IMG/VR virus record: IMGVR_UViG_3300042922_000850
Coordinates: 1 to 64,000 of that record
Origin: a virus
Length of the DNA: 64,000 nt
Reading direction: 5' to 3' (one strand)
Shown: positions 7,208 through 56,842 of the stretch, piece after piece
Position numbering within the stretch: position 1 is the first letter of the stretch
How the letters are laid out: each line of letters opens with the position of its first letter
Translations under genes and position numbers: made by a program
The notes under the pieces: generated by a model
What the model was told of the DNA's origin: nothing
What the model saw: only the letters and a program-made list of their open reading frames with translations
Database searches by the model: none

Positions 7208-8233
7208 TTACTTTCCTTCAAGAGAACCAAATCCAACTGCCGGGGAACCGTCTCTAGCCATTACGCTATCGCCAGAAGCAAATTTGATCTTGTCGTCACC
7301 TACTGCGAAGTCAAGGATTAACTTACCAACAGCTTTTTGGGATGCCATATAAATTCCTAAGAATTCAAACATGAACAAACCTTTTTCAAGCTTATTGCCG
7401 GTCTCTGTCAATCTAACAGTAAGATCTTTAAGGATAGGCATTCTGCCTACGTATTCAGCTTCAGCGAAGCAATAAACAACTTCCATTGCGATAATAGGAG
7501 AAGTGATTAACTTCACATTACCCCAAATAGAATACTTAACGCCAGTTTCTAACATCTCTCTTTGTGTTAACTGATCGATCTCTGATGTAGCCCAATCAAG
7601 AACATCATCAAGTCTAGCAGGGTTCATTACGAAAGATGCCAAAGGAACGTTATGCTGAGAAAGAGTCTTCTTAAGATTTACTAAGTGAGTCTTTTTCAAG
7701 CTAGTATCTGCAGTCGTAACAATCTGAGCTGCATTAGAAGGAGCTTTCTTATCAACGGATGTGCCGATAAGTAATCTTTCTACAAGGTCAAGGATTTTTG
7801 TATCCTCTGCCTTTGCAACAGACTGACCAGAAAGTTCTCTAACTCTTTCAAGATAGTTGTATTTCTGAGTCAATAATCTCTTCAGGCCGATTGTTGTATC
7901 GTCAGAAGTGATTGTCATGATTGCAACGTTTACGCCGTCACCCTCAATCTGGTATCTCGGAACTTGCATATCAGCACCGTAGAAACAAGCGTGAGAATTC
8001 ATATCCTTAGGATAGTATACATAATCCTCACCATCGATAGGGTGTAATTCTTCACTTGTTACATTATGAGCTACAAGAATTTGACGGCCAAAAGCCTCAT
8101 AATCTCTTGTTTCTCTGATGAACGGAGGAAGCTTTTCTAAAGCGATCTTCTCAAGTCCACCGGGCATATCTAATAATCTTGCTATGTTAAAATCAGCACT
8201 AGCAGTTTCAGCAGCGGTTTTAATAGCTAACAT
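7208..8233 (-). CDS. Major capsid protein
   Basis: A 341-residue protein followed by a strong terminator. I start it at the ATG at 8233 (MLAIKTAAETASADF) because GGTGAG lies seven bases upstream; an ATG at 8248 overlaps that site. The pattern fits a HK97-fold capsid protein: a helical N-terminus, a long E-loop region with DGEDYVYYPKDMNS, a central spine, and the closing beta segment YMASQKAVGKLILDFA. About 30 residues in, the sequence GGLEKIALEKLPPF contains the LEKxA motif shared with many other virion proteins here, a likely maturation cut that removes a short N-terminal piece. Gene order (decoration protein just upstream) supports the call. Confidence 0.82.
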   Translation of the reverse strand: MLAIKTAAETASADFNIARLLDMPGGLEKIALEKLPPFIRETRDYEAFGRQILVAHNVTSEELHPIDGEDYVYYPKDMNSHACFYGADMQVPRYQIEGDGVNVAIMTITSDDTTIGLKRLLTQKYNYLERVRELSGQSVAKAEDTKILDLVERLLIGTSVDKKAPSNAAQIVTTADTSLKKTHLVNLKKTLSQHNVPLASFVMNPARLDDVLDWATSEIDQLTQREMLETGVKYSIWGNVKLITSPIIAMEVVYCFAEAEYVGRMPILKDLTVRLTETGNKLEKGLFMFEFLGIYMASQKAVGKLILDFAVGDDKIKFASGDSVMARDGSPAVGFGSLEGK

Positions 8234-8266
8234 ATAGTTGCTCACCATCCTTCTTTTATTATTTTA

Positions 8267-10474: not shown

Positions 10475-12943
10475 TTATTTTAAAGGTTCTGTTGTTGGAA
10501 CAATGGCTGCTTCATTTTTAATCGCAGGGCTCGCTCCTTGTTTAGATTTGTTAAGCAGTTTTGTTAGAACAAAACTGTCAATCAGGTTGCCAGGAAAAGA
10601 AGCCAAGAGCGATGTTCCTCTCGGATTAAATAAAACATCTCCTGCGGCATTTGCTACCATCTGCTTATTAAATTCTGCGTCCGCAATCTTTTCAATTCCT
10701 ATTTTAATGCAATCGCTCGCTGTTTTCAAGTATTCTGCTAAATCTTCTTCTAATAAAGAGTGTTTATATAAAATATCATTAGCTACATCTTGTTTTTGCA
10801 TTGCCGTAAGAATACATGCTTGCTTAATTGCCCCGAGTTGATTTTCGGAGTAATGCTTCAACATCACAGAATCGATATCGCTATCTTTAAACATGTCACC
10901 ATTATATAATGAACTTTTGCCATTATCAAATAAAGCTGTTTTTTCTTGCTCATTCTCGTTCAAATTTGATGCGAACTTCTTATATAAGAAGTTATCCAGT
11001 GTATCAAGTCCACCTATATTTTTAGCTTTTAATTTACTCAGACCTTTCGCAACGGTTGGAGCGAAAGCTAATTGCAAAATAGCTGTACTCCCAGGGTTCT
11101 CTGCTGCAAAACGGTTAACTGTATTGACTCTTTCTCCATTATTTATTCTGGCTCTCTGAATTCCAGAATAAGCATATGCAGCCGGTATACCAATTAGTAT
11201 AGCTTTCCCACTACCCCAAGGTTTTTTTGATGCTGTTTTATATATATCGTTTCCATATATATCGCCAGCAAATTTACTAATCCCACTCTGCAGTTCGCCA
11301 TTCAAATAACTTGCAACCCTTTCATCCTGATATGTTGAGTACATCAGACCAGATAATATATAAGGCACTGTCGAAGCTACTTTGCTGATTGGTAGTTTAG
11401 ATTCGCTTCCTAATAATTTTACAGGAGCAAAATGGCTCATATTCCTCGGATTTAAAGTTGGTCCATTTTTAATCATCTTTTCCAATCTTGGGATTAAGTG
11501 ATTCCTATGCATGCTTCTTTCCGCCATTAAAGACTTAACGATATGGCTCATAATATCCATCTGCATCATATCATCATTCAGTGACGGTGCATTCTTCTTA
11601 ATTAAGACAATAGTGGATTTCATTTTTTGTAAAGAGTTTTCCGTATCCGGATTTAAAGCGGCTAAAATCTTGGTTTGGTTTGGTCCAAAACTCTCCAGTA
11701 TTGTTCTGAATAATGTCGGAAGATTCATATGCTCTTCCATAGAATTTCCGTTAATTATCTGGTCCATCTCTTCAGATAAACCACAGTTTTCAACCGACGG
11801 AATATTAAATTGTCTTAGGTCTGGTGTGACATCCCCCATTAAAGCACTCGAAATATCATGCAATTCAAGTGGAGTTAATTCGATACCTGCAAAGTTTAAG
11901 ACTTTGATAAATTGATCAAAGGCAGCTTCTAAAGGCATCGCTCTTTGTTCTGCCAGATATTTTATTTTCTTTGCAATTTCAAAACACTTTTCACGATCCC
12001 AGAAATTTTCGCCAAGAAGCTTCAAGGTTTCAGCCATAGCATCTGCATTTTCTTGTCTTTCTTGAATATATTCGCCTTTTGCAATATTTAAAATTTTACC
12101 TTGCAAATCTTTTTTTATCTCAGCAATTTTTTGAACGTATGCTTTTTTATCCATGGTTTTATACATATTCATATCAAGGTCAATTGTATCTACTGCGCTA
12201 GCTATTTTTTGGCCATGATGCTCCTCACTTGTTTCTTCTGTGAAAATGCTGCTAACAGATTCTTGAAAACTCGCAACTTTCTCTAACGATGTTTCCCCTT
12301 CTTCAAAAGCAACCTTACCATCAACAATCATAAGACCGATAACTTTAGCTGCTCTTTCTGCGCCGTTTAAAACAGCGGAGATATCGTGAAATTTTGGACC
12401 AATATTAATTTCATAGACCTTTCTTCCGTCGTCTAGAATTTTACCTCTTTGAAGTTTAATATGGTCACAGTATTCGTATTTTGTTTTTGCTTTATTCCCA
12501 CAAATAGAACAAACAGAGTGAGAAATTCTGCACCCCATAGAAACATCTGTCATGAACCCCTTTTCAAATCCGCGGACGATGGTTGGAGCGATTTTTCTAT
12601 CAATCCTAAGCAAAAGGTCTACGCCTTTCATTTTATCGTTCCATTCGGCAGTTAGCACATCGCCAATTGCATTTTTAATGTCTTTGTTTTCATGGTTCTT
12701 AAACGTGTGAGCTGTTAAAAACGTCATGTAAGAAGTTTTTAACTCGGCTTCTGGAAAGAAGTCAAAGTTTTTATTACACCCCCAAAATTCACCAGCGCTT
12801 ACGCCCCTAACCTTCATATAGAAAAAGTCGGGGTCATACACTACTCCGTTAGGAAGTTTGAGTGAAGCTGTTTTTAGCAAATCTCCGTCTAAAATTTCTA
12901 CCGCATCACGTCTTATTGTAAATGTCGTCATTTTATTAAACAT
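10475..12943 (-). CDS. Head maturation protease with long C-terminal extension
   Basis: An 822-residue protein. Residues about 35-210 match the prohead protease pattern known in several large phages: a histidine in KNHENKD (H84), a serine in DVSMGCR (S135), then CSICGN and YCDH, a C-x2-C...C-x-H metal-binding set (C145, C148, C159, H161). The remaining 600 residues are helical and contain SLEKVASFQ, ISKVASTV, DIYKTASK, YKKFASN and QEKTALF, the same motif as in other virion proteins, so the protein is probably cut by itself. LLKTASLK at residues 22-29 would remove a short propeptide. It is the first gene of the head operon. Confidence 0.75.
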   Translation of the reverse strand: MFNKMTTFTIRRDAVEILDGDLLKTASLKLPNGVVYDPDFFYMKVRGVSAGEFWGCNKNFDFFPEAELKTSYMTFLTAHTFKNHENKDIKNAIGDVLTAEWNDKMKGVDLLLRIDRKIAPTIVRGFEKGFMTDVSMGCRISHSVCSICGNKAKTKYEYCDHIKLQRGKILDDGRKVYEINIGPKFHDISAVLNGAERAAKVIGLMIVDGKVAFEEGETSLEKVASFQESVSSIFTEETSEEHHGQKIASAVDTIDLDMNMYKTMDKKAYVQKIAEIKKDLQGKILNIAKGEYIQERQENADAMAETLKLLGENFWDREKCFEIAKKIKYLAEQRAMPLEAAFDQFIKVLNFAGIELTPLELHDISSALMGDVTPDLRQFNIPSVENCGLSEEMDQIINGNSMEEHMNLPTLFRTILESFGPNQTKILAALNPDTENSLQKMKSTIVLIKKNAPSLNDDMMQMDIMSHIVKSLMAERSMHRNHLIPRLEKMIKNGPTLNPRNMSHFAPVKLLGSESKLPISKVASTVPYILSGLMYSTYQDERVASYLNGELQSGISKFAGDIYGNDIYKTASKKPWGSGKAILIGIPAAYAYSGIQRARINNGERVNTVNRFAAENPGSTAILQLAFAPTVAKGLSKLKAKNIGGLDTLDNFLYKKFASNLNENEQEKTALFDNGKSSLYNGDMFKDSDIDSVMLKHYSENQLGAIKQACILTAMQKQDVANDILYKHSLLEEDLAEYLKTASDCIKIGIEKIADAEFNKQMVANAAGDVLFNPRGTSLLASFPGNLIDSFVLTKLLNKSKQGASPAIKNEAAIVPTTEPLK

Positions 12944-28000: not shown

Positions 28001-31000
28001 AATGAGTTCGCCGTAGAGCTTATTTAAATCATCAATAATGTACGATTTCTTATCATCAGTTTGATTAACCGGCCTTAAGTACGTTGGAGCAACTGGAACA
28101 TACCGCATCATTAAGTCTGACGCCTCCATGTGGTTGGTGTTAAGCATGGTTAAAAGCTTCATCTTCTTATAGGCTTTATCAATCTTGTCGCCTTGCGCCT
28201 TTTGAAGTTCAACCTTTGCTCTGCCGAGCTCTTTCTCCACGTTGACCTTATCCATTATGCTTTCCAGAGCTTCTCCTCCGGCCTGCCACAAAATGTATTT
28301 GCCATCCATATTTAGCTTTTCAATTTCTTCAGGAGCAACCAGAGAACCGGGTTTTAACCCAGCTTCGTCCATATCTTGCTTGTGTTTTTCCCTAACGCTT
28401 GCTGGCATAGTGTCAAACGGAGTATATTTATCAGGGTCTAAAATTAAAACTTTTTTACCCTTTGTTAACTCTTGCAGTTCTTTTGTTTTCATACCGGTCA
28501 ATAAAACATACGGATTATAAGAACTATCTTGCATCAATACTGGGTTTGGAAGCGGAACAGCAAGTTTTACAAAACCCCACTTCTTTCTCTCGTCCAAAGT
28601 TCTTTTTTCACCAAAAATCTTGGGGTCCATCAGTCCACCGATAACAGGAACATCTTCTTTAGTTTCGCTCTTCTTCTTTGATTTAGAAGCTTCCCCATGA
28701 GTATCTTTAGAGGTATATAATTTAGGTTCCTTTACTTCGGCATTCTTTCCAACCATTTTAATAAACTCGGAGGATTTCATTGGCTGGATTGATATATTAT
28801 CAAATACATCGTCAAAAGAACCAACTTCCTTGCCGTTATATAAAGGCTTAACATTAAGACCTAGCACTTTCAGTGAATCGCTCATTACCTTTAGTGACAT
28901 TGGTGTTGCAGGCATATCTAAACTGTCCAACTTACCGGTAGAAATTGCATTATACATGGCAATTCTTGTTTGAGCGTCCCCTCCACCATCGGATTTAATT
29001 GTGGAGCTCTCTAAAATATTCCAAACTGCCTGATGCCCTTGTAATGCCCTCATTTCCATTTCGCCTAAACTTTGCGGGTTGTGTTTTTCACCGGCTGACG
29101 AACCAACTTTTTTAGAAGGCATGTTAGATTTTCGGCTTGGGTCGGTCTCCAAGTTATAACGCGCTTGGATTTTATCGTCCGCTTTATGTTTTAATTTCAT
29201 GATATACATGTTGCCAGCTGTGATTGGATTTTCTACGGGTATCTGTTTGATACTTCCGTCCAAATCCTTCTGCCTTAAATAAACCTTCATTTTGCCGTCT
29301 GTGTATCCGATATCTTTTAATGCTTGAAGAACCCTATCCTTCTCTTTATGATCGAAATTCATAACATTGTAAGCTTTCCCTGTTTTCTCAGAAGCCAAGC
29401 CAGCATTTACTTCAAGCACCTGCCCAACATTCTTTCTTGAAGGAACAGCTAATGGCGAAAATAATAAATCGGGAGTGGTGTTATCTTCTAAAATTGGCAT
29501 TTCTTCATCATCCAGAATTTTTGTAATTGTGCCTTTATTCCCGTGGCGACCAGAAATTTTATCTCCAATTTTAAGAGGCTTTGAATTAACAAGAGTTATG
29601 ATGATCTTCTGCTTATTGGATGCATCGGGATTATCAATAACGGTAACCCTTTTAACAACGCCCTCTACGTAACTTGAACTTTCTATGCGAATTGGATTAA
29701 ACCTATAATTTAGGTTTTTGTCAGCTGCTAAGATAGCTTCTTCATAATCACTGCTGCCCTCGCGGATCATGGGCTTTAAAGTCGCAACGAGGATATCTCC
29801 AGGCTTTACCTTTTCTCCGACTTTAATAATACCGTCTTCATCTAATCTATTTTTAAACTCATGAACCGACGTGTAACCAACAAGTTCGCTCATGATACTG
29901 CTACCGCGCCCGCCCTTATTAATTCTTGAAATTTCAACGGTCTGTTCATCCATTTCTTCTGTCGCCATTCGGTTTGCAAAAGAGCGTTTTATAACAATAC
30001 CGTCTTCGTAGTTGTATCCTTTAAACGGAAGAAAAGCAACTTTAGCATTCAGACCAAGAGCCAAGCTACCGTCTTTAGTTTGCCATCCTTCAGCGAGCAA
30101 ATCACCACTCTTTACTTTGTCCCCAGGCTTCACAACTACTTCGTTATTAATAAAACTTTGGTTTAATGGATAGTACTCGAAGAAATTCTTTGAATATTTC
30201 TTTCCGTCGTCACCCTTAATAACAATTTTGCCATCTTTGATTGTTTGAACTTCTCCGGCAATATCGGAACGAACTGGCTTTCCGTACTGTTCGCCAATAT
30301 ATTTTTCGTAAGTTAAGTTCTTTGAGGCATCCATCATATTACCAACAAGAGGCACTTCTCTGTTCTTCAAGATAATCGCTTGTTTCTGCATGTTTGCGCC
30401 CATCAAAGCTCTATTTCCGTCATCATGAGCTACAAATGGAATTAAGTTCGCTGCGTAGCCCATAACATCACGAGAGTCTCTGTCAACGTACTTTACTTCC
30501 GAAATAGGGACCTCTGTGATTTTTCCGAGTTTTCTTGCAGGGACTTTATTTTTTGTAAACTGCAGTTTATTCCCAGACACAGTAATATAACGACTGTCAT
30601 TGAAAGCGACAACCGTATCATATTCCTCATCCGGTGATAAGTAAACTTCGTTGCTTGGAATCGCTTTTGCAACACCGCTAACGACCTTTAGGACAGGAGC
30701 CTTAATGGTTCTGTTTTCAATAATAGCGCTTTGCGTTAAGTGCTCCACCAAACCAATGTTCCCTGATTCTGGAGTTTCAATAGGATCAATTCTGTTCATT
30801 GAGTTTGCTGCTAAATTTCTAGCAGACCATTCATTTCTTGCAGCATCAGAAGATAAACCACCCTCACCAAGCTGAGTGATCTTTTTTGACATACCGGCCA
30901 TAAACAAAGGATTTGTTTCTTCTGGAGTTTGCACGATGGAACTGGAACTCATAAATTTACTTAAAGTCTGCCCTATTTTTGTTGTGGTTCTAACATCAGT

Positions 31001-31999
31001 ATACCGGATATCCTTCTTGCCGTTATCTAAAATGTTTTGAGCGGTTTGAACAAATTCGGTCCAATCTTTTTCTATTTGTTCTAAAATAAAGTCATTATCA
31101 TCATAAACATCTTTAAAGCGCAAATCGTCTTTATCATCTTCCTCTGTTTGGTCTTGAAAAACAGAAAATGTTTTTGTGACTGCGCCTGCGATAATTTTTG
31201 GCGAAAGATAATCTTCTTTCAATCCAAGACTTGCCTGAACTACAGGTATACCGGTTCCGAACTTTGCGTTATCTTTTAAATAATCAAATAACTCAACTCG
31301 CATTTGCATCGGAGCTTTTGGCCCAGGGGCTACACCCATGATGGCAGTATAGATATCACCTATGGTTTTAGGACTTCTTTTCCCGTATTTTTCGAACAGT
31401 TGGTCGGACACGTTGCCGTTACCAAGCATTTTTTTAATGTCGGCATCTTGAAATCCTAGTGCTCGAAGGAAATTAATTCCGTTAAAGTTCTGTTGTTTCC
31501 TGCCTTTAATAGAAACGACAAAGTCATTTGATGCCGGGGAATATTGAATGGTCATTTGCGGAACATATTTACCTGCCGTAAATGAGTTATCCACCATGAT
31601 ATTTGTTTTAATATCATTCATTGCAGAAGTCTTACTCGTATAAATGCCCGGTTTTAATCTCATTTGGCTAAGGATGTTTTTCTCTGTTCCGTTTACGATA
31701 TAAGTGTCTCTCTCAGTAACAATCGGCACAGGAATGAGATGGCGCATTAACCCACTTTTACTAATAATTTCGCCCTTGGCATCTCTGATTACAATCTTAC
31801 CGCCGATATATCCTTCGAGGCTATCGTTCTTAGAATACTTCATCACCAATTGCTTATTGATATCGTCAGCAGCGCTAGGCATAGTGAAATTAATATCTTC
31901 AATGGTAAGTGTTTTTCCGTCTTTCCCCTTGATTGGAGTTGTTCGGTTGATCAGGTCGATTATCGAATTTTTAAGGTTATCTGTTTTTGGCATGGCCAT
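25094..31999 (-). CDS. Fused beta-beta' multisubunit-type RNA polymerase, single polypeptide
   Basis: A 2301-residue protein holding both catalytic subunits of a cellular-type RNA polymerase. The beta part (about 1-1000) has the fork-loop cluster ETNPL...ITQLGEGG (about 360-380), IDPIETPESGNIGL, YNYEDGIVIKRSF and GRHGNKGTITKIL (about 817). A lysine/serine-rich linker (about 1090-1115) leads to the beta' part: RSVIGVDP, ADRPIMLNRQPSLHK-like KDRPIMLNRQPSLHK, the magnesium motif NADFDGDTMAAH (D1528, D1530, D1532), a zinc site (DCKT, then LKCKAVGGVCQLCYG) and the trigger helix QMTMNTFHSGG (about 1950). The N-terminal beta' zinc domain is missing: KIFGEKRTLDERKKWGFVKLAV runs straight through. No alpha or omega subunits are visible. 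It lies downstream of the portal gene, so late expression or virion packaging is possible. Confidence 0.95.
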   Translation of the reverse strand: MAMPKTDNLKNSIIDLINRTTPIKGKDGKTLTIEDINFTMPSAADDINKQLVMKYSKNDSLEGYIGGKIVIRDAKGEIISKSGLMRHLIPVPIVTERDTYIVNGTEKNILSQMRLKPGIYTSKTSAMNDIKTNIMVDNSFTAGKYVPQMTIQYSPASNDFVVSIKGRKQQNFNGINFLRALGFQDADIKKMLGNGNVSDQLFEKYGKRSPKTIGDIYTAIMGVAPGPKAPMQMRVELFDYLKDNAKFGTGIPVVQASLGLKEDYLSPKIIAGAVTKTFSVFQDQTEEDDKDDLRFKDVYDDNDFILEQIEKDWTEFVQTAQNILDNGKKDIRYTDVRTTTKIGQTLSKFMSSSSIVQTPEETNPLFMAGMSKKITQLGEGGLSSDAARNEWSARNLAANSMNRIDPIETPESGNIGLVEHLTQSAIIENRTIKAPVLKVVSGVAKAIPSNEVYLSPDEEYDTVVAFNDSRYITVSGNKLQFTKNKVPARKLGKITEVPISEVKYVDRDSRDVMGYAANLIPFVAHDDGNRALMGANMQKQAIILKNREVPLVGNMMDASKNLTYEKYIGEQYGKPVRSDIAGEVQTIKDGKIVIKGDDGKKYSKNFFEYYPLNQSFINNEVVVKPGDKVKSGDLLAEGWQTKDGSLALGLNAKVAFLPFKGYNYEDGIVIKRSFANRMATEEMDEQTVEISRINKGGRGSSIMSELVGYTSVHEFKNRLDEDGIIKVGEKVKPGDILVATLKPMIREGSSDYEEAILAADKNLNYRFNPIRIESSSYVEGVVKRVTVIDNPDASNKQKIIITLVNSKPLKIGDKISGRHGNKGTITKILDDEEMPILEDNTTPDLLFSPLAVPSRKNVGQVLEVNAGLASEKTGKAYNVMNFDHKEKDRVLQALKDIGYTDGKMKVYLRQKDLDGSIKQIPVENPITAGNMYIMKLKHKADDKIQARYNLETDPSRKSNMPSKKVGSSAGEKHNPQSLGEMEMRALQGHQAVWNILESSTIKSDGGGDAQTRIAMYNAISTGKLDSLDMPATPMSLKVMSDSLKVLGLNVKPLYNGKEVGSFDDVFDNISIQPMKSSEFIKMVGKNAEVKEPKLYTSKDTHGEASKSKKKSETKEDVPVIGGLMDPKIFGEKRTLDERKKWGFVKLAVPLPNPVLMQDSSYNPYVLLTGMKTKELQELTKGKKVLILDPDKYTPFDTMPASVREKHKQDMDEAGLKPGSLVAPEEIEKLNMDGKYILWQAGGEALESIMDKVNVEKELGRAKVELQKAQGDKIDKAYKKMKLLTMLNTNHMEASDLMMRYVPVAPTYLRPVNQTDDKKSYIIDDLNKLYGELIKANNPVKADTEIGDLYQSRDVLSAAKGVGNIYNRLTDLTGHTTRKDIKTKKELKGIKDALGSKEGLIRSEMLSKRVDFSGRSVIGVDPMLKMNEVGIPIDMARQMYKPFIIKGLINDGFASNTIEANKKYKALDEDTKYVIRQVAKDRPIMLNRQPSLHKFSIMAFDPVIKETEDGTVVRSMHLNPLVVEGFNADFDGDTMAAHTAVTERANEEAKLLMKPSDNLINPTDGKMIVNVRHEMVLGIYYLTVNSDKPEGSGVTYSDYRKLRKDYKDGLVKARTKISMGNISNVTAGQMMFNLLLPEKYRNFKQTWGKSEIEKMLRTMYRDGEESGWKEISKIKISSIMDDIKQLGFEAATRSGISIGSSDFKKIEAADAIFDKNLTAAKKDLGDTEAALITGWRNAEEEIETELKAGRILDAENPLQIMMASGARANAGQIRRMMVTAGVGMDINKRLTVPVKSSHFDGLSPEEYWIHGKDSRKGMSDRSVSTSAPGEITREVWSAAQDVLIVEKDCKTREGIYLPISNNTIDGRIAAEDIVGEAGTILVKRNQMITRDIRNRLYKDPTIKQAKVRSPLKCKAVGGVCQLCYGAMPQTIQLPKEGTPVGTLASHAMGEPVMQMTMNTFHSGGTGSGATLGLPRIETILNLGKDKSTPAILAKISGTVTGIEKGPAQDILFINGKAHGVPHIDGKSQPLKVSVGDKVVKGDFLTPGDSEDLENISNKDVVFTNADPKELYKLKASEFDSDTALDYVQNYLTNSMDYAFKKTTSSGSIDRRHEELIIGKMTSKAKVLDSGDSHFMKGDEVDRNALIKWNTENSTPYSVRKISIGNTAAIVGRKSGETYKSRANTVIIAKGEVINEMSLIALRTAGYKEIKVQPRLIVFENQLHSKNTIATHGHSNWLSNLGHEDIMSQLARGATLGQVDKLNDPRSRQMTGKLLNVGEGFDIPADKGNGVATRMFNLFGKIK

Positions 32000-36385: not shown

Positions 36386-36628
36386 TTATATTTTTATCGG
36401 CCATCTCGGAACAAAGTCCTTATCTGTCTCTCTTGCAGAGAGAATATTGTCAAGTTTGAAACAACGGATGCCTTTTTCCGTACCGCCAAAATATTGATCG
36501 CCTTTTATTTCATATGGCTCAGTATCTCTTTCCGAAATATCGTTTCCGGAAGATCGATATATAATGGTAACCATCTTCTTATCCCGCGCTGATTTAGAAA
36601 TAGTTTGTAAAATTGAATAGTCTGCCAT
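36386..36628 (-). CDS. Free-standing WYL-like domain protein, 80 residues
   Basis: A small protein consisting of one beta-rich domain: VTIIYRSSGNDISERDTEPY, then GDQYFGGTEKGIRCFKLDNI and a C-terminal PRWPIKI. The pattern of a beta strand, EPY, aromatic strand, FKLDNI resembles WYL domains, which bind ligands or nucleic acid in regulators. It is clearly paralogous to the N-terminal 85 residues of the SNF2 protein at 53913-55751 (same EPYxIxG, KGxIRxFKxxN and PxWxI positions). Here the domain exists alone. The ATG at 36628 follows GGAGGAAT. Confidence 0.65.
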   Translation of the reverse strand: MADYSILQTISKSARDKKMVTIIYRSSGNDISERDTEPYEIKGDQYFGGTEKGIRCFKLDNILSARETDKDFVPRWPIKI

Positions 36629-36633
36629 GTTAT

Positions 36634-38184
36634 TTATTCCTCCAAGCCAACCATGTGATATTGTTTTGACATTCCCGACTTTAATCCATCATAGTTGGTA
36701 AGGGTATCCTGTTTGTTTAGCTTTTTCTGCTCCAGCTTATCAATGTCGACATTGTTGACCTTTTCTTCTATGTCTTTTATCACACCCGACGCAATCTTAA
36801 ACAAATAGTCAAGCTCTTCTGAAGCTGTTTTGATTTCCGGCGCCTTTTTTGTTTCTATCGTAACCCTGGCAATTCCATCCGGAATAGGCTGACTTTTAGG
36901 GCTATCTTCCTTTTGTTCTAGCTTTTCAAGTCTGCCCTTAAGATTTCTTCCGGTCGTTGCAATAAAGAGGGCCGGGAAAATAGACCTTGATAAACCTTGC
37001 AATGCTTTCTTTGGCAATGTTTCTTTTGCCCACTCTCCCCAAGGTATGTTCCTTGGCTGTGGTATCTGACCTAGCTCAATACCTGCATCATAAGCCTGTT
37101 TTGATATGCTGCCGGTCGTTTTTCTTTTTCTTGGTTTATTCTGCTTTTGCAATGAAGATAACGGGAAGTCAACAACAACGCGCTCAACATTAGGGTCGAC
37201 AGCAGGATCAAAAATATTTTTGCCTGCAACAAATCCTGCAAGTGCAGGGGCGCCATAATATGGGATTGATTCTAATCCTGCTCGAAGAAAATCATCTCTT
37301 ACCATTTGCTTTGCTTTTGGCCGAACCTTTGAAATAGTATCTTGCACTTTGGATTGGATACTAGCAGATTTTTCAAAAACCTCATCAAGGACCACACTTG
37401 CTTGTTTCCCTGAATTATGAAGGGCATCATAAATATCTCCATCGCTATAGAGCAGACCACCCATATCTCTTCTCATGTTTGAGTGTTCCTGAGACAATTT
37501 CCTACTAACGTTCCTTGCGTTATTTATTTTTTCATTTCGAACATCCTTGGTTCCGTCTTTAACTACATCCATGACGGTCTTCATGGATTTGTTTTTCCCG
37601 AGAATTTTTCTAGGGAGTTTATGAACGAATTTATCCAGTCCCTTTTTCGCACTTTGAACCGGTGCCATTGGGTTCTTCTTCGCTAGCCCTTGGAGTAATC
37701 CGGCACCTAGCACAGCTCCTCCGGCAACAAGGTAAGGGTTAAACCCTTCATCATTGTCGTGGTAATTTTTCTCTTTGATTTCTACAAGGTTTATGGGCAT
37801 ACTCGGTTGTTGTGGTCGGTTTGACTGATAATTTCTGTTGGGACGACTATAATTGCTATTGCGGTTACCATAGGAATTGTTAGCCCTATTATTGTTATAA
37901 GGTCTGTTATTATAACTCTGGTTACGTGGTGCGGTAGCGTTACTGCCAGATGTTTCCTCAGCAGCTTTGCAAAGGAAATCAAGTTCTTCTGAAGCATTAC
38001 GGAATAAAGGGTTTGAGTTAACTGCATTAATCGTGCCGTCTCCAGAGGGTGCCTTTACTAATTTATTACCGAGGATGGCATCGTATTTACTTCCTGCTGC
38101 CATCTGAGCCTTTATATTCTGTTTCGTTTTCTTCCCGGTACCAATAATTTCGTTTCCAAGGAAAAAGGATGATATAGGATCCAT
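36634..38184 (-). CDS. Virion-associated protein with N/R-rich linker
   Basis: A 516-residue protein, ATG at 38184 behind AAGGGGGG. The segment about 80-130 is made of N, R, Y, S and Q (NRANNSYGNRNSNYSRPN), a disordered linker. A glycine-rich hydrophobic stretch follows (YLVAGGAVLGAGLLQGLA). Two nearly identical motif copies occur: NASEELDFLCKAAEE near residue 68 and TASEELDYLFKIASG near 460; EVFEKSASIQ near 270 is a third. The features suggest an internal head protein processed by the head protease. Family unknown. Confidence 0.6.
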   Translation of the reverse strand: MDPISSFFLGNEIIGTGKKTKQNIKAQMAAGSKYDAILGNKLVKAPSGDGTINAVNSNPLFRNASEELDFLCKAAEETSGSNATAPRNQSYNNRPYNNNRANNSYGNRNSNYSRPNRNYQSNRPQQPSMPINLVEIKEKNYHDNDEGFNPYLVAGGAVLGAGLLQGLAKKNPMAPVQSAKKGLDKFVHKLPRKILGKNKSMKTVMDVVKDGTKDVRNEKINNARNVSRKLSQEHSNMRRDMGGLLYSDGDIYDALHNSGKQASVVLDEVFEKSASIQSKVQDTISKVRPKAKQMVRDDFLRAGLESIPYYGAPALAGFVAGKNIFDPAVDPNVERVVVDFPLSSLQKQNKPRKRKTTGSISKQAYDAGIELGQIPQPRNIPWGEWAKETLPKKALQGLSRSIFPALFIATTGRNLKGRLEKLEQKEDSPKSQPIPDGIARVTIETKKAPEIKTASEELDYLFKIASGVIKDIEEKVNNVDIDKLEQKKLNKQDTLTNYDGLKSGMSKQYHMVGLEE

Positions 38185-48620: not shown

Positions 48621-49145
48621 TTATGCGATATCAACAACATCGCCCAATTTATAGCTACGTGATACTTTGCTGCGCAGAGTACTATTCGGGTTTAAAACAT
48701 CACCTTTCACTCTCACTGGTTGAATTTTCTTAGGGGATAAGCCTGCCACAGTATTTGTTACACCTTTGTCTGCAATGCCTATGTTCGTAACCGGCCCGGT
48801 TATTTGTTTTGGTGGTTGTGCAATAACAGAGGATACATCTTTTGTAACATTCGATGCGGGCACCTTCGCTTTAATTGAGCTCCCTATCATGCCACCAACT
48901 AAAGCACCTTGCAACGCACCACTAAGTTTATTACTTTTTAAATTGCCATTTTCATCAGTTGACGGTTTTGCGGTTAAAGCCCCTCCGACTGCACCTAACC
49001 CAGCTCCGGTCAAAGCCTTTTTTGTGACTGACTTCGCAGCAAAACTTTTAACTGCATTCGCAAGAACAGCTCCGGCGACAGCAATCTTTTCTGTTTCCTC
49101 TGCCATTTTATAAATACAATCTTCGTAATACGCTATTTTATCCAT
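48621..49145 (-). CDS. DKIAYYED-tagged glycine-zipper protein, 174 residues
   Basis: ATG at 49145 behind AAAGGAG. It starts with MDKIAYYEDCIYKMAEETEK, the longest form of the recurring virion motif. Two glycine-alanine segments follow (ALTGAGLGAVGGALTA and LSGALQGALVGGMIGSS, about 44-90), and then a valine/proline-rich tail. The tag and zipper suggest a small capsid-packaged membrane protein. No family recognised. Confidence 0.65.
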   Translation of the reverse strand: MDKIAYYEDCIYKMAEETEKIAVAGAVLANAVKSFAAKSVTKKALTGAGLGAVGGALTAKPSTDENGNLKSNKLSGALQGALVGGMIGSSIKAKVPASNVTKDVSSVIAQPPKQITGPVTNIGIADKGVTNTVAGLSPKKIQPVRVKGDVLNPNSTLRSKVSRSYKLGDVVDIA

Positions 49146-49482: not shown

Positions 49483-49544
49483 TTATTTAAGTGTTGTGGA
49501 AATACAAAAATAAAACTATCCGAGCATGGGAAGGGGAAATAGCA

Positions 49545-50150
49545 ATGAGCGAAAAGGCAGATAGAAACAGGGATCTTATCATAAGGGCAAAGGAGGGTGA
49601 CGCGAAGGCACTGAATGAACTCTTCAGAATTAACGAAGGATTTAGCAGAAGCGTAGCAAAAAGATACTTAAACACTGGGATAGAATTTGAAGAACTGGTT
49701 AGCATGTGTAAATTAGGGATGGTAAAAGCCTACAATTCTTTTGATCTGGAGAAAAATATTTCATTTATAACTTATGCGTCACCCTGTATGATGAACGAAA
49801 TTAGAATGGTTCTTAGACAAAAATCAACTCATACCGTAGACGCATTATCCGTTTCCATAGAGGCAGAAATAGATACGAATTTAGACGGGCACCCCATAAG
49901 TTATAGCGATGTTTTAGCTGACGACAGGATTGAAAGTAACGTTTGTGATTTATGTGTTCAGAGACAAGAGATTTTAGATATGAAAAAAATTATAGCCGAA
50001 TTGCCAGAAAAGGAACGCCTAATTATTACGAACATATGGTTTTACGGTAAAAAACAGAGAGAGGTATCAAATATTTTAGGGATATCTCAACCGCAAATTT
50101 GCAGACTGGAAAAGAAGGCTCTTCAAAAAATAAAAAGAAAATTAGAATAA
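49545..50150 (+). CDS. Sigma-70 family factor, SigE/SigK-like
   Basis: A 201-residue RNA polymerase sigma factor; start ATG 49545 (MSEKADRNRDLIIRAKEGD) behind AAGGGG. Region 2 is RSVAKRYLNTGIEFEELVSM then VKAYNSFDLEKNISFITYAS, with MMNEIRMVLRQ. Region 4 is LPEKERLIITNIWFYGKKQREVSNILGISQPQICRLEKKA. The stretch between (VSIEAEIDTNLDGHPISYSD, then VLADD) resembles the region 3 linker of the sporulation mother-cell factors SigE and SigK. It may direct the host polymerase, or the phage's own core, to phage promoters. It is the only sigma gene in the window. Confidence 0.88.
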   Translation: MSEKADRNRDLIIRAKEGDAKALNELFRINEGFSRSVAKRYLNTGIEFEELVSMCKLGMVKAYNSFDLEKNISFITYASPCMMNEIRMVLRQKSTHTVDALSVSIEAEIDTNLDGHPISYSDVLADDRIESNVCDLCVQRQEILDMKKIIAELPEKERLIITNIWFYGKKQREVSNILGISQPQICRLEKKALQKIKRKLE

Positions 50151-50368: not shown

Positions 50369-50400
50369 AACACAGGGGCATATGCCCCTGTGTTTTATTT
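50363..50400. terminator. Bidirectional terminator
   Basis: Perfect 38-bp palindrome: AAATAAAACACAGGGGCAT and complement. It serves the 49-residue gene (plus) and the 287-residue gene (minus), overlapping both stop regions. Confidence 0.9.
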
Positions 50401-51258
50401 ATCTGTTTTATTTAATTCATTGATCGTATCTTTAAAGATTGGTCTATTCTCCTTCACTACCGATCTCTGGAGCTTATTCCCTAGGTTCTTATTGTAAACC
50501 CCGCTCTCTCCATAATTTAATCCAAGTTCCTTGTATCCATCAAGTTCTCCGGTGACACCCCTCATTTTTTTCATATATTCTTTTGTGGCTTTTGGCGCTA
50601 TTGCGGTATCAGCGGATTCATTTAAAATAACCTTTGGACTAATATGGGAGCTGGTGTCAGCCATAGGTACTCGCTGATCTTTATAAGCGATGGAAGACCT
50701 TTTACTTTTGAGGAGGTTTGATCCATGGTTTATCTCGTTTGCTTCGTGGCGATTGATAATTGCTTCCGTAAACTTTCTGTCAGTGGGGTTTTCAAAAGAC
50801 TTTAGATCGGCCCCCATTCCCTTTAATGTCTTCGTCAACTTATTAATGTCGCCCTTGTGAGCAAATCCACCACCATGTGCCCCAAGCATTGACTGAAAGC
50901 CTCCACCAGCTTCAAAAGCATCTTTCAGGTCTTGTCTATAGTCTTCTGGGTCTCCTCCAACCGATTTAATTTGATCCATAAAAAATTTCCTCGATTTTAC
51001 AGAACTAATAGCTCTATCAGCCATGTCATCAGGTGTAAACCCAGAAACGGATTTTGCACCCTTGCTCTTTAAGATATTTTCAGTCCCCTTGTTTAACCCG
51101 GCCAACTCTTTCTCATGATTTAAAACGCCACTACTCATTAGCCGATTAACCGATTTGTCGGAAAGACCGCCTACAACCTTTTTCCATGCTCTTGCCATGG
51201 CGCTTTTCTGCATTGCCTCTTTGTAAATTATGTCTTCGTAATATGCTACTTTATCCAT
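50395..51258 (-). CDS. DKVAYYED-tagged putative cargo protein, 287 residues
   Basis: ATG at 51258 behind AGGAGG. It starts MDKVAYYEDIIYKEAMQKSA, the recurring tag. The body is alpha/beta, glycine-rich in the middle (FEAGGGFQSMLGAHGGGFAH), with RKFTEAIINRHEANEINHG, a conserved-looking RHEANEINHG segment whose H, E and H might bind metal. No family is recognised with confidence. Tag and operon position suggest an enzyme packaged in the head. Confidence 0.6.
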   Translation of the reverse strand: MDKVAYYEDIIYKEAMQKSAMARAWKKVVGGLSDKSVNRLMSSGVLNHEKELAGLNKGTENILKSKGAKSVSGFTPDDMADRAISSVKSRKFFMDQIKSVGGDPEDYRQDLKDAFEAGGGFQSMLGAHGGGFAHKGDINKLTKTLKGMGADLKSFENPTDRKFTEAIINRHEANEINHGSNLLKSKRSSIAYKDQRVPMADTSSHISPKVILNESADTAIAPKATKEYMKKMRGVTGELDGYKELGLNYGESGVYNKNLGNKLQRSVVKENRPIFKDTINELNKTDK

Positions 51259-51271
51259 AGAACCTCCTGCT

Positions 51272-53920
51272 TTATTCTTTATCGTGAATATTTTTCGCTA
51301 TCACAGCTCCACCGGCAGCAACTCCACCAATACCAAGTAAGGATAATCCCATACCTTTGCCAAATCGCTTAGGATTATTTTTGATATAATCTAAAATTTC
51401 TTTGCCGCCTAACTTTTTGTAATTCTTACTATCTTTAAATACTTCTGGCCCAACGCTTCCTTCAAAGACAGCGGTATTTTTACGCCCAATATTATTATAA
51501 TTCATGCGATACAATGATTTAATATTATCTGCGTTGGGATCCAATTTCCTCACTTCGGACAAATATTCACTAAAATCTCTGGTTCCTCTTAGCTCCGGAT
51601 TATCTACTTCTTTGAGTTTCCATGAGGGAACAGATGCCTTTAACGTCTTTCTCTTTTTAGCCTCTTCTTGAATTTTTTTCGCTTGTTCAATCGGGTCAGA
51701 GAACACCCAACCAGCAGGGTTAGTTTTCATCGCTTCTCTTTGAGCGTAAACATTACCCACACTGTCTGCTACCATCTTTTTCCTACCAAAGTATACTTTA
51801 TTCGCCTGTTGCTCTTTGGATAGTCGTACTTGACTTGTAATATTATCCTCATCAAGAGCCTTAGAAGCATCGAGGCCGCGTTCTAAAATACTATCGACAT
51901 TGTTTCTGTGAGTGTTATGATACATCTTTTCTCTTCCTGTCAGATTTCCACGGTCAAGTTGATGCTTAGTTACTGCTGCACCCGTGATAGCGGTAGCGGC
52001 AGCCACAGCGTTCTCGTTATCATTATCTTCGTCTTTTTTTGCCGCTTTATAAATTCCCTCTTCATACATTGCGATTTTATCAATGTATGCTGCCGTCTTA
52101 TCAGCACCTCTTAACTCACTCTTAGATTTTTGTGCACCGCCAGTATAAGTTCCTTTATACACAGGAACTTCCTCCATTAACAACAGCTTAGATGCCTCCA
52201 TGCGGTGATGTCCATCAAAAAGAATTTTCTTCCCAGGAGTTTGAGGACGAATACCATTTAGTTGGTTAACTATAATGAACGGCTCCACTTTCCCCTTATC
52301 TTTTTGAATACCTTCAGCAATGCTAAGGACCTTCTCTTGCTTTATAGGCTTATTAATGCCCTGTAAGTTCTTAATTTTCTCCGTGGTCTTTTCCCACTTA
52401 TAATTCTTTGCCATAGCAAGAGCACCATCTACATTTGGCGTCTTATATTCATGAGAAGTTGCCATCATCGTAGCAACCTTGCGGGCGATGTCGTCAGAAA
52501 GAGCGGCTTCAATTGCGGGAATCTTACCATCCTTACCAACTTGGTCGTCTTCTCTGGCAGATGCAGCTTTTTCAAAGTTTGAAGATTTCTTACACTTTAA
52601 TTGTTCCATGATATGTCCTGGCGAAACCTTTTTTAAAGCTACGTCATAGTGCTTTGCCATATCTCTGAAGGTTTTAAAATGTTCTTCCGATATAATATCA
52701 ACATCCTTATCAGTGTAGTGTTCAATATCATTATCGTAACGAAGGGGTTTAAAACTTCCCTTTAATTTATACATAGAACACGGTTTATCCAAGTTTACCG
52801 CATCGGTATATTCCAGCCTAGTTCCCTTGTAATTACTTTCATCAGGGACATCTTTGTTACTGGTCTCTACCACAAACCTTGCGTTCCCATCGTTCCAACG
52901 AGCTCCAAACGCCGCCGCAAAAGAAGGATCCTTGGAGACAAAGATCACCTTACCCTTGTTGTTACCGGAAGTATCCTCAGATTTCCGAAACTTTTTAATA
53001 TCCTGAACTCTGGATGCGTGATACATAAATTGTTCTTCGGCTGTTTTAAGGATTTCTTCTTCATACATCTCAGCCTTCTTTAACCACGATTTAAAGCCTC
53101 TTACTTTTTCAGGGAGCGTACTTGCGTCCCCATCAAAATTAATGCCATTATCGTCAACGTAGGCGATTGCCGGAGGTTTTTTATCGGTAACATCATCGAC
53201 TTCGATATCATTCTCTTGCAGGTATTTTTTAATTGCATCAATCCCACCTGGTTCGGCGCAACGGGTGGACACGACGATAACCTTGTGGTCTTTGCGTAAG
53301 TCCTGAATAGCTTCTTTAATCCCCGGCACAGGTTCGTCAGGGATAATATTGTTACCCTCCCACCCGCTTTTATAAGAGTGGATAACGCCATCAAAGTCGA
53401 ATACGATGTTGGGCTTCTCTTCAGAAGCTTTCTTTTCCAAGTTATTTTTATAAATCTGACGCACCTCATTGATTACGTCATTCTCTAATCGCTCGGTCGA
53501 GCCTTTTGTTTTTGAGTAGTTCTCTTGGTAGTCCTTGGTATTCTTGGCAATATTATCGCCAATTTTGGATCCTACAGCCATTCCTGCAGTCATTCCGGCC
53601 ATAGGGAGAACAAAACCAAGACCTGCGCCGGGATATTTTTTCTTTGAAAGAAACATCGGGGTCATTCCAATGGCTGTTCCGGGGAGTAACCCAACAGCCA
53701 TCCCTTTAGTTTTTGCATCTTGCGTTTTAAGATTTAATTGCTTTTCTTTTTTGGAATTTGTATAATCTGGATGACTTTCAATTAATTCTTGGGCTTTATT
53801 GTACAGAGGATCATAATCATTCGGATCACCATCTGTCATATCATAAATTTCATTGTAAATTTTTCGACTGATTAATGCCTCTTTATAAATTTTTTGTTCA
53901 AGTTCCGTTGTCTTATCCAT
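51272..53920 (-). CDS. Multidomain putative cargo polyprotein (zipper, HAD, ART-like, ParB-like, ART-like)
   Basis: An 882-residue protein; ATG 53920 behind GGGAGGG. Domains in order: tag MDKTTELEQKIYKEA and glycine-zipper segments (72-125); a HAD phosphatase-like domain (171-268) with NIVFDFDGVIHSY and AYVDDNGINF; a module starting MYHASRVQDIKKF (299-395) that resembles ADP-ribosyltransferase-like folds; a ParB/sulfiredoxin-like domain with ILFDGHHRMEASKLL (566-580); a second module starting MYHNTHRNNVDSILERGLD (666-825); and a C-terminal hydrophobic segment (SLLGIGGVAAGGAVIAK). Motif copies sit at the boundaries: NLEKKASEE (160-168), KKAEMYEEEILKTAEEQ (281-297), NFEKAASAR (448-456) and DKIAMYEEGIYKAAKK (614-629). 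HAD and ParB-like calls are firm; the ART-like calls are tentative. Confidence 0.75.
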   Translation of the reverse strand: MDKTTELEQKIYKEALISRKIYNEIYDMTDGDPNDYDPLYNKAQELIESHPDYTNSKKEKQLNLKTQDAKTKGMAVGLLPGTAIGMTPMFLSKKKYPGAGLGFVLPMAGMTAGMAVGSKIGDNIAKNTKDYQENYSKTKGSTERLENDVINEVRQIYKNNLEKKASEEKPNIVFDFDGVIHSYKSGWEGNNIIPDEPVPGIKEAIQDLRKDHKVIVVSTRCAEPGGIDAIKKYLQENDIEVDDVTDKKPPAIAYVDDNGINFDGDASTLPEKVRGFKSWLKKAEMYEEEILKTAEEQFMYHASRVQDIKKFRKSEDTSGNNKGKVIFVSKDPSFAAAFGARWNDGNARFVVETSNKDVPDESNYKGTRLEYTDAVNLDKPCSMYKLKGSFKPLRYDNDIEHYTDKDVDIISEEHFKTFRDMAKHYDVALKKVSPGHIMEQLKCKKSSNFEKAASAREDDQVGKDGKIPAIEAALSDDIARKVATMMATSHEYKTPNVDGALAMAKNYKWEKTTEKIKNLQGINKPIKQEKVLSIAEGIQKDKGKVEPFIIVNQLNGIRPQTPGKKILFDGHHRMEASKLLLMEEVPVYKGTYTGGAQKSKSELRGADKTAAYIDKIAMYEEGIYKAAKKDEDNDNENAVAAATAITGAAVTKHQLDRGNLTGREKMYHNTHRNNVDSILERGLDASKALDEDNITSQVRLSKEQQANKVYFGRKKMVADSVGNVYAQREAMKTNPAGWVFSDPIEQAKKIQEEAKKRKTLKASVPSWKLKEVDNPELRGTRDFSEYLSEVRKLDPNADNIKSLYRMNYNNIGRKNTAVFEGSVGPEVFKDSKNYKKLGGKEILDYIKNNPKRFGKGMGLSLLGIGGVAAGGAVIAKNIHDKE

Positions 53921-55751
53921 TTTTACCCTCCCGGCTTTTCTTTAATAAATCAAAGAGCAATTGATTTTGTTTGTCTTTGTGTTGAGCAACTTCATAAATA
54001 AATTCATCTGGCGTCCGGTATTGTGATTTAAAAATACCGAGTGTTTTTGGCATTGTAGCCATGTAGCGATTTACATTTACAGACCGGTCTTTAGGCTCCC
54101 TGTGGCTTAACCCACCACTACGAATACCTCGTGCCTCCATTTGTTTCATCTTCTCTGGATTAAAATGAGGGTCAAGAACACCTTCCCATGTGGTATCGTT
54201 TAAAGAAATACCTTCTCCGCCGGCGCCGCTAATCAGCATGACCTTCTTTGCCCTGTTGTTAAAATCAACAACATCCTTTTGGCGGCTCTCTTCAGTTACA
54301 CCTTTGTTACCTTTCCCAATAAACTTTCCATACTCAATCCCACGGTCTTTTAAACCCGCTTCAAGCGTATCTGTGCCGCCGTTAATTAAATGACTGAAAA
54401 GAAGTGCCTGACCGTCTGGAGTATTCTCTAAATGAGCCTCTAGGTCGTCTAAGAGTTTCTTGGTCTTAGGGGTAATCTTTGCGCTTTCTTCCAAAGAAAT
54501 ACCAGGATGAACTGAACCAACGCTGTTCATCAATTTTCTTTCCTCAATCATTTGATTATATGCTTTTGCAATTTCCTCATTTTTAAAGGTTTCCAGACGT
54601 TTTGCAACAATCATCTGCTTTATCTTGGGATTGTCAGAAAGCATATCTTTGTATATTTTAGCCTGCTTCTTACTAATTGGTACCTTTATGATATTGGTTT
54701 TCTTTTCAGGCATATTTGCGACATCTTTGATATCATCATTATCTAAATAATCAATATACTTGGATAATTTACTTGCCAATTCCTTCTTATAATTAAATCC
54801 AACGACAGGAATTCTCTTTTCATTTGTTCCTTGGTATTGCCTATCAGTACTTCGCTTCAGGTACCGTTTGGAAAACTCATCTTTGCTTTCTCCGAGATTA
54901 TGATTGCCATTTGATGCAACATCGACAAGAGGCAATACATCAGCAATTTCATTAGACACTACTGAACCGGTTAAGCCGATATAGTTTTTGTACAGTTTTC
55001 GGCTAGATTTCAATGTTTCCGTAGTAAGAGTATCTTCGTTTTTACCACGATGGCTCTCATCCGTTATGACTGTATCTGCTCCGCTTTCTTTTAAATATCG
55101 TTCAGGATCGCTACGAAACATTTCATAAGAAATAACATTATAATCAGAATTTGGGTCGACGTTGTGATGCGTTCCTTTTTTTATTTCGGTTTTGTTCCCG
55201 ATTACATTTACTGTGCTATCAGTAAATTTACTAACCCCTTGTTCTGCAAAGTTATTTCTAAGAGAAGCGGGGACAATTATAAGCGCTTTGTTTGCCTTCC
55301 CCTCTGCCTTTAGTTTCTCGAACCTAGCAATACCGGTAAGCGTTTTTCCACTACCAACGCCGTGCGCGTAGATTACACTGTCTCCTGGGCGATTAACAGA
55401 CTTTTCTTGATGCGGATATAATTTTACATCCGATTTCAGTGCAGCTTCTTTATAAATCATATCTTCATACATTGCTATCTTATCCATCTGAATACTCCAT
55501 TTCGGTTCATAGATTTGTTTGGTGGATTTAACACTGCGAAGGTTCTTTATTTTAAACCTACGGATGCCACCTTTTTCCGGATCGTATCCCCAGAAATCGC
55601 TACCATCTATTTTATAAGGTTCTACGTTCCGAAAAGAGATGTTGCCTTTTTTATCACAGTACTTTATCTGCACCATGTTCATATTATTGCCACCGAGTTT
55701 AAGTTTCTCTATGTGTTGTAAATCACGTTTTCCGAATTCTTTTTCCGGCAA
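53913..55751 (-). CDS. WYL-like domain fused to SNF2-type helicase
   Basis: A 612-residue protein starting at TTG 55751 behind AGAGGGTG. Residues 25-88 form the WYL-like domain paralogous to the 80-residue protein at 36386. Then comes the tag MDKIAMYEDMIYKEAALK (89-106), whose ATG at 55487 has a GGAG seven bases upstream and could serve as an internal start. The rest is a superfamily 2 helicase: LYPHQEKSV, Walker A AHGVGSGKT (129-137), ITDESHRGK (DEAH-type box, 229-237), SGAGGEGISLND and QMEARGIRSGG (motif VI). SNF2 proteins translocate on duplex DNA and displace proteins. The gene starts the cargo operon. Confidence 0.8.
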   Translation of the reverse strand: MPEKEFGKRDLQHIEKLKLGGNNMNMVQIKYCDKKGNISFRNVEPYKIDGSDFWGYDPEKGGIRRFKIKNLRSVKSTKQIYEPKWSIQMDKIAMYEDMIYKEAALKSDVKLYPHQEKSVNRPGDSVIYAHGVGSGKTLTGIARFEKLKAEGKANKALIIVPASLRNNFAEQGVSKFTDSTVNVIGNKTEIKKGTHHNVDPNSDYNVISYEMFRSDPERYLKESGADTVITDESHRGKNEDTLTTETLKSSRKLYKNYIGLTGSVVSNEIADVLPLVDVASNGNHNLGESKDEFSKRYLKRSTDRQYQGTNEKRIPVVGFNYKKELASKLSKYIDYLDNDDIKDVANMPEKKTNIIKVPISKKQAKIYKDMLSDNPKIKQMIVAKRLETFKNEEIAKAYNQMIEERKLMNSVGSVHPGISLEESAKITPKTKKLLDDLEAHLENTPDGQALLFSHLINGGTDTLEAGLKDRGIEYGKFIGKGNKGVTEESRQKDVVDFNNRAKKVMLISGAGGEGISLNDTTWEGVLDPHFNPEKMKQMEARGIRSGGLSHREPKDRSVNVNRYMATMPKTLGIFKSQYRTPDEFIYEVAQHKDKQNQLLFDLLKKSREGKNG

Positions 55752-56285: not shown

Positions 56286-56528
56286 ATGAAGAATACTGGA
56301 ATGGTAAGAAAATTGGATGACCTTGGTAGAGTTACTTTGCCAATGGAATTAAGAAGAACTATGGATATAGCAAAGCGCGATGCTCTGGAGATTTTTACAG
56401 AAGGGGAAAGTATTATTCTTCGTAAGTACGAATCAAAGAAATGCGTGTTCTGCGGAAAAACTAATGATATCGAGGAATTTAAAAATAAATTCGTATGCAG
56501 AGAATGCAAAGAAGGTTTGAAAAAGTAA
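56286..56528 (+). CDS. AbrB/SpoVT-type transition-state regulator
   Basis: An 80-residue protein. MVRKLDDLGRVTLPMELRRT, then DALEIFTEGESIILRKY, is the swapped-hairpin AbrB DNA-binding domain, in which the LGRVxLPxExR segment contacts DNA. The C-terminal 30 residues have CVFCGKTND and CRECKEG, a zinc ribbon also found in clostridial AbrB-like regulators. AbrB proteins repress stationary-phase and sporulation genes. The ATG at 56286 follows ATAGGAGG. Confidence 0.9.
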   Translation: MKNTGMVRKLDDLGRVTLPMELRRTMDIAKRDALEIFTEGESIILRKYESKKCVFCGKTNDIEEFKNKFVCRECKEGLKK

Positions 56529-56554: not shown

Positions 56555-56842
56555 TTGAATCGCAATATTAACAAGCGGACCGATGAAATACACAGAAGAG
56601 CAATCGAAATAGCAGAATATGTTATCGAAACAGGATGCACCGTACGCCAAGCAGCAAAACGTTTTGGTGTGAGTAAAAGCACAATTCACAGAGATTTAAC
56701 AAAAACATTAATTGCAATGCATGAATATAGTCTTCATGATAATGCTGCCGTTATCATATCTGTGAATAAAGCGGAACGACATGTTCGTGGTGGTCAAGCA
56801 ACAAAGGCTCGTTGGAGAGATTTCTCAAAAGACGGCAAATAA
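56555..56842 (+). CDS. spoIIID: SpoIIID-like sporulation regulator
   Basis: A 95-residue protein starting at TTG 56555 behind GGGGGTG. RRAIEIAEYVIETGCTVRQA, then AKRFGVSKSTIHRDLTKTL and VNKAERHVRGGQATKARW match the host SpoIIID regulator closely, including the helix-turn-helix and the C-terminal basic helix. In spore formers SpoIIID acts in the mother cell to switch genes of the SigE regulon. A phage copy next to AbrB, with a SigE/SigK-like sigma elsewhere, suggests control of host sporulation or re-use of these factors for phage genes. Confidence 0.88.
   Translation: MNRNINKRTDEIHRRAIEIAEYVIETGCTVRQAAKRFGVSKSTIHRDLTKTLIAMHEYSLHDNAAVIISVNKAERHVRGGQATKARWRDFSKDGK

Follow-up and report, generated by a model that had tools for sequence, protein, structure and literature searches.

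A candidate head-packaging and cleavage tag between the WYL domain and SNF2 helicase of an uncultured phage

Introduction

Does a phage gene that joins a WYL domain to a SNF2 helicase yield one protein or two, and if two, do they arise from two translation starts or from the cutting of one chain? This question is raised by a 612-aa ORF on the minus strand (53913-55751) of the 64,000-base stretch analysed here (the window), which is part of a 166,758-base record of an uncultured phage. A preliminary description had noticed the fusion, a free-standing paralogue of its first domain and a start codon inside the gene, and had suggested that the gene might make both a fusion and a helicase alone, or be cut into two products. 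From the genes alone, we infer that the protein is probably a head-packaged precursor that the prohead protease would cut into a WYL part and a helicase. One precursor split during head assembly, not two separately translated proteins, appears the most likely source of two products.

The phage encodes its own terminase, a major capsid protein (7208..8248, minus strand; PHROG major head protein, 5.1e-24) with a distant relative in Bacillus phage G, and an RNA polymerase whose beta and beta-prime parts are fused in a single 2301-aa ORF (25094-31999, minus strand; Rpb2 domains followed by Rpb1 domains). A long counterpart of this polymerase ORF is present at L013 11448-17603. On the plus strand, a SpoIIID homologue (56555-56842; Pfam 1.2e-28), a MazE/AbrB-type DNA-binding protein (56286-56528) and a sigma-70-type factor (49491-50150) together point to a spore-former-like (Firmicutes) host. 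The relatives compared below are metagenomic records, some of them fragments, and motif counts cover the 64-kb window plus retrieved stretches of the record.

Results

The precursor gene contains three segments. It opens with a TTG codon (55749..55751, minus strand) preceded by GAGGG, and the gene in the relative L002 has a similar leader and also starts at TTG. A WYL domain (residues 11-89; 55485..55721, minus strand; detected by BLASTP, PADLOC and HMM) is followed by the tag MDKIAMYEDMIYKEA (residues 89-103; 55443..55487, minus strand), which we identify from motif statistics and position and whose core, [hydrophobic]-x-K-x-A, retains its K and A in orthologues. The remaining 509 residues (104-612; 53916..55442, minus strand) form a SNF2 helicase, the predicted mature head cargo, with orthologues 53-63% identical. 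Pfam finds SNF2-rel_dom (PF00176, 3.3e-23) and Helicase_C (PF00271, 4.5e-8), and the Walker A and B motifs (GSGKT and DE(S/A)H) are conserved across the helicase orthologues, so that the protein has the SNF2_N and Helicase_C modules and the Walker motifs of a SNF2 helicase-like ATPase. AlphaFold models of the full precursor (4 sequences) reach a mean pLDDT of 48-49, too low to judge the WYL fold or the exposure of the tag; across the WYL part pLDDT is about 30-40, a confidence at which an Sm/SH3-like barrel is not readable. The fusion is present in two separate records, and we therefore reject an assembly artefact as its source.

The fused domain is homologous to a free-standing WYL protein of 80 aa (36386-36628, minus strand), which matches the Pfam WYL family at 9.6e-8 (32.4 bits against the PF13280 curated cut-off of 21.8). 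BLASTP pairs residues 11-89 of the long protein with residues 7-80 of the 80-aa one, with 28/79 identities (35%, E 5e-12). The preliminary description had put the match at the first 85 residues, position by position; the homology holds, but 5 columns of the alignment are gaps and residues 1-10 are unmatched. Its observation that the domain ends where the tag starts is exact: M89 both closes the match and opens the tag. The fused copy has no Pfam match. However, its residues 24-89 match the PADLOC WYL model (E 0.0024), and a profile built from WYL copies other than the helicase-fused ones retrieves the 612-aa ORF at E 4e-20, with the runner-up among 321 window ORFs at 0.59. In L002, the fused WYL scores 21.4 bits in Pfam, just under the 21.8 cut-off, and 2.8e-9 with PADLOC. 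Pfam, BLASTP and the WYL profile thus bear out both the fusion and the paralogue. Two arginines, R34 and R55 (P0002 numbering), are invariant in five WYL copies, and we take them, by the pattern in the literature and without a structure, to lie at the WYL ligand groove.

The free WYL gene comes after the same tagged 473-602-aa gene in three phages (G000, G001 and G002); in the window, its upstream neighbour is a 516-aa head-region protein (36634..38184, minus strand) with 5 tag-core sites. In a further phage (G005), WYL is fused to the end of this tagged head-region gene, and a core site precedes the WYL. Both helicase-fused WYLs form one clade (support 0.988), so the helicase fusion is most simply a single event predating the split of the two phages. 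The free WYL gene carries no conserved tag: an I-S-K-S-A in it was set aside as a chance fit, since it falls within the region of the first helix and lacks conservation. Viral contigs searched with patterns from the 80-aa protein, and genome contigs searched by an alignment-based scan, yielded no relatives.

The tag recurs across the head genes. The preliminary description had named the tag and missed its likely nature as a packaging and cleavage signal. Near copies head three other minus-strand genes, encoding a glycine-zipper protein (MDKIAYYEDCIYKMA... at its start; 48621..49145), a cargo-like protein (MDKVAYYEDIIYKEA...; 50395..51258) that belongs to a tagged paralogue family, and an 882-aa multidomain neighbour (51272..53920) in which the tag also occurs twice in variant form. 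Elsewhere in the record, near 95.5 kb, the tag heads a further gene. The strict form of the tag pattern matches 5 times across the record, always on the same strand, and its reversed control never matches. Counts of the core show the same asymmetry, with 76 on the late strand against 28.1 expected and 10 on the other strand against 11.0. Among 17 head-region genes, the core occurs 68 times against 18.3 expected (z 11.6), the top of 400 two-residue variants, whereas tail genes (3 vs. 3.1 expected) and early genes (10 vs. 10.3) are at chance level; this set of 17 was chosen partly with knowledge of the tags. Because some head genes were picked in this way, we recounted in relatives and, with the effector genes left out, on the core of capsid, portal and scaffold genes, where K-x-A is still top. 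Head blocks are enriched in G001 (10 vs. 2.6 and 25 vs. 5.7 expected), G002 (24 vs. 5.3 and 18 vs. 6.4), L017 (19 vs. 4.7) and G007 (20 vs. 5.5), while tail blocks are at chance in G002 and L017 and reach 10 vs. 5.8 in G001. Elsewhere, a share of the motif copies must have arisen by chance. The 2301-aa RNA polymerase, considered as a multi-cut substrate, was dropped for want of a motif excess (3 vs. 4.3 expected). Together, a tag common to several head-region proteins and a motif whose enrichment is confined to head genes are the pattern expected of capsid targeting. In the 612-aa protein the tag is internal (residues 89-103), whereas it is N-terminal in the G002 and G007 orthologues, so targeting of the fused protein would rest on an internal tag.

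Positions of the core in the capsid protein and scaffold are as expected of prohead-protease substrates, judged by sequence and by analogy. In the capsid N-arm, the site GG[LF]EK[IL]A/LEKLPPF (here GGLEKIA/LEKLPPF) is conserved in four phages, and a matching site is found by alignment in Salmonella phage Arash. The predicted prohead protease forms the N-terminal about 230 aa of a protein that continues into a scaffold-like region (10475..12943, minus strand; PHROG head maturation protease, 1.1e-9) and that has 11 core sites where 2.0 are expected (11 to 13 vs. about 2 across three phages). Its homologues include gp19 of phage G and gp222 of Arash, and a His (FKNHENKD region) and a Ser (SMGC) are conserved. 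A conserved CxxC...CxH insertion, zinc-ribbon-like, is common to it and both of these homologues, which are annotated merely as gp19 or structural protein. AlphaFold models of the protease domain (3 sequences) have a mean pLDDT of 48-49, and Foldseek with these low-confidence models returned no match. Arash and Vibrio phage D69, both of which carry the homologous protease, likewise have the core as the top motif of their head blocks (32 vs. 5.7 expected and 37 vs. 6.4, respectively). Phage G has a modest excess (11 vs. 3.9) and a capsid protein without the exact motif, and Mycobacterium phage Alice, which encodes a distant relative of the protease, has no general K-x-A excess, so the motif is not common to all protease homologues.

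Within the helicase orthologues the core marks the joints between modules. The L002 protein (phage G001; helicase 62% identical) has the order tag, WYL, tag, helicase, tag, extra domain. The inner tag recurs with 38/39 identical bases; the two copies, at positions 100 and 619 of this 710-aa protein, differ by one synonymous base in 39, and such near identity suggests that the tag was copied recently or served as a site of recombination. The L003 helicase (phage G002; 63% identical) has no WYL and begins ...MLKRA/ALNKDVKL, and its second tag leads into another domain. That domain (TSAWKSRV...) is duplicated, again after a tag, in the adjoining gene (L003 9028-9927 and 9992-12115), which by sequence would be another sign of tag-bounded module shuffling. 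The G007 helicase (53% identical) begins MNTRKILEKIA/KLNPDIKL and also has no WYL. In four orthologues, 8/8 core sites fall at module joints and none inside the helicase cores, where 3.5 are expected and zero sites arise in 2.9% of shuffles; the cores are related, so this zero does not amount to four independent tests.

These orthologues also bear on translation from two starts, in which the TTG at 55751 would give the WYL-helicase and the ATG at 55487 (55485..55487, minus strand) the tagged helicase alone, both being packaged. The internal ATG does have its own GGAG, as had been described, at a 7-base spacer; helicases start at the tag in two relatives; and genes of the same operon overlap and re-start, the helicase stop overlapping the ATG of the next gene. 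However, comparable upstream motifs occur by chance at 2 other in-frame internal start codons, of 24, which makes the GGAG at 55487 weak evidence by itself. Furthermore, the sole other fused orthologue, L002, has GTT at the homologous codon and no start with a Shine-Dalgarno sequence nearby, so that internal start and motif are not conserved among orthologues. We consider two starts unlikely. Of the two routes to two products that had been proposed, cutting is strongly favored by the core, which behaves as a prohead-protease site would across the head genes of this phage and its relatives and stands at every joint of the helicase orthologues. By sequence, the internal ATG is probably a start left over from before the fusion, like the one used in L003 and G007, and could still work.

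The genes around the helicase repeat this arrangement. The 882-aa neighbour has 7 core sites (after residues 15, 165, 283, 294, 453, 617 and 627) at the apparent joints of modules in the order gly-rich, HAD-like, ART-like, ParB-like and second ART-like. Residues 157-297 are HAD-like (PHROG 1.7e-18), and the ART and ParB calls come from motifs seen by eye plus a weak PHROG ParB match (E 0.045). From its sequence, it looks like an effector polyprotein that could be cut. The tagged paralogue family has members at L029 4583-5548 (G000 about 94.6-95.5 kb), window 50395-51258, L003 12124-13479, and L021 1562-2458 and 5291-5737. At their N-termini they share a conserved core (W[KR]...G.LS......L.......GL.KG) that matches no known domain, and on this pattern they are likely to be unrecognised head cargo.

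The same sites help to weigh a stable two-domain enzyme, in which the WYL would be a permanent nucleic-acid-binding accessory and the tag would target the uncut protein to the head. There are precedents for WYL domains as accessory ssDNA-binding modules in Pif1 helicases (PMC9964779) and for their binding of ssDNA in PafBC (PMC11804915), and Arg positions are conserved in the WYL set. Yet the helicases of G002, G007 and Arash do without a WYL, the same core stands where cutting is to be expected, in the capsid N-arm and the scaffold, and in other proteins copies of the tag lie between modules that are unrelated. We regard an uncut enzyme as very unlikely.

Evidence from virions comes from Arash, whose Gp217 is the nearest named helicase relative within a head-gene block and whose Gp217 gene adjoins an RNA polymerase subunit gene. 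Gp217 was detected in purified virions at 100% coverage, with 38 unique peptides and 1148 spectra, against 1333 for the capsid protein; the preparations held 116 proteins, some clearly non-structural, and the authors allow for carry-over (PMC10585845). By alignment, Gp217 has neither tag nor WYL, so a helicase can possibly be packaged without the tag.

Discussion

The reading that we favor runs as follows. The WYL-tag-SNF2 precursor would enter the prohead as one of its internal (ejection) proteins, with the tag serving as capsid-targeting peptide and cleavage site combined. The prohead protease would cut after IYKEA (A103), and possibly also after MDKIA (A93), releasing a WYL peptide and the mature 509-aa helicase, which would stay in the head, be injected with the DNA and most likely act as a dsDNA translocase early in infection. 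One possible task, like that of RapA, is to clear or recycle polymerase on behalf of the large RNA polymerase that the phage encodes; another is protection of incoming DNA, for which P1 DarB offers a precedent (PMC5512222). The sequence favors neither decisively, and by analogy Arash and a jumbo-phage survey (PMC7824862) would favor the polymerase partner. The fusion itself may go back to a helicase gene that already opened with a tag and then gained a duplicate of the free WYL gene, which would make the internal ATG the old start.

By analogy, the WYL piece may bind nucleic acid as an accessory, control the helicase before cutting or be passive cargo. A refinement compatible with packaging and cutting is that the WYL, as a pro-domain, holds the helicase in an inactive state or off cytosolic DNA until it is cut away in head maturation. 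The order of WYL, cut site and helicase in two phages and the single clade of their fused WYLs agree with this idea, but two related phages manage without a WYL, and we think it improbable. More broadly, and only tentatively, the portable tag could be both a packing ticket and a scissors mark, so that the head protease would cut tag-separated polyproteins in trans, modules would move between phages by recombination at tags, and the WYL would be a removable controller or loader of the helicase until it reaches the head. If the motif is right, the injected cargo of this phage group and of cultured relatives, among them Arash and the Vibrio phages with this protease type, would become readable from sequence alone: rightly placed [hydrophobic]-x-K-x-A tags would mark candidates for head cargo, and the cut sites would define the mature pieces. 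Tag-bounded modules would then offer a concrete evolutionary route to multi-enzyme payloads.

Parts of this arrangement are known from other systems. WYL-containing Pif1 helicases of thermophilic bacteria also carry a WYL on the helicase polypeptide (PMC9964779), but Pif1 belongs to superfamily 1 and its WYL is C-terminal and permanent, whereas here a superfamily 2 helicase has an N-terminal WYL across a predicted cut site. Jumbo phages link a Swi2/Snf2 helicase to the phage multisubunit RNA polymerase (PMC7824862). Like them and Arash, the present phage has both a SNF2 gene and its own multisubunit polymerase; unlike them, it adds a tag and a WYL, and its helicase gene lies away from the polymerase gene.

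Polyvalent proteins (Iyer et al. 2017, PMC5512222; P1 DarB-type SNF2) similarly join SNF2, ART-like and ParB-like modules in a head-gene context, with two modules in the 612-aa protein and more in the 882-aa neighbour. In that study, WYL is named only as a CRISPR-associated nucleotide sensor. The embedded peptidase that is frequent, although not universal, in polyvalent proteins was not found in the 612-aa (P0001) or 882-aa (P0003) protein by Pfam, PHROGs or NCBIfam. The present proteins differ in their predicted cutting in trans, by a head protease at repeated tags, and in having no fused methylase.

The closest parallel is with cleaved targeting propeptides on the head proteins of T4 and SPN3US (PMC7411985). 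In T4, internal proteins and Alt carry a capsid-targeting sequence cut by gp21, and head proteins of SPN3US and phiKZ are cut by the prohead protease, which in SPN3US is gp245 (PMC7411985, PMC10052503). As in these phages, a short tag or propeptide is common to several internal head proteins, here read from genes alone, and ends in a protease motif also present in capsid, portal and scaffold proteins. The motif differs, being [hydrophobic]-x-K-x-A rather than A-x-E as in SPN3US or that of T4 gp21, and here the tag also stands between unrelated domains, so that one gene would give several predicted products.
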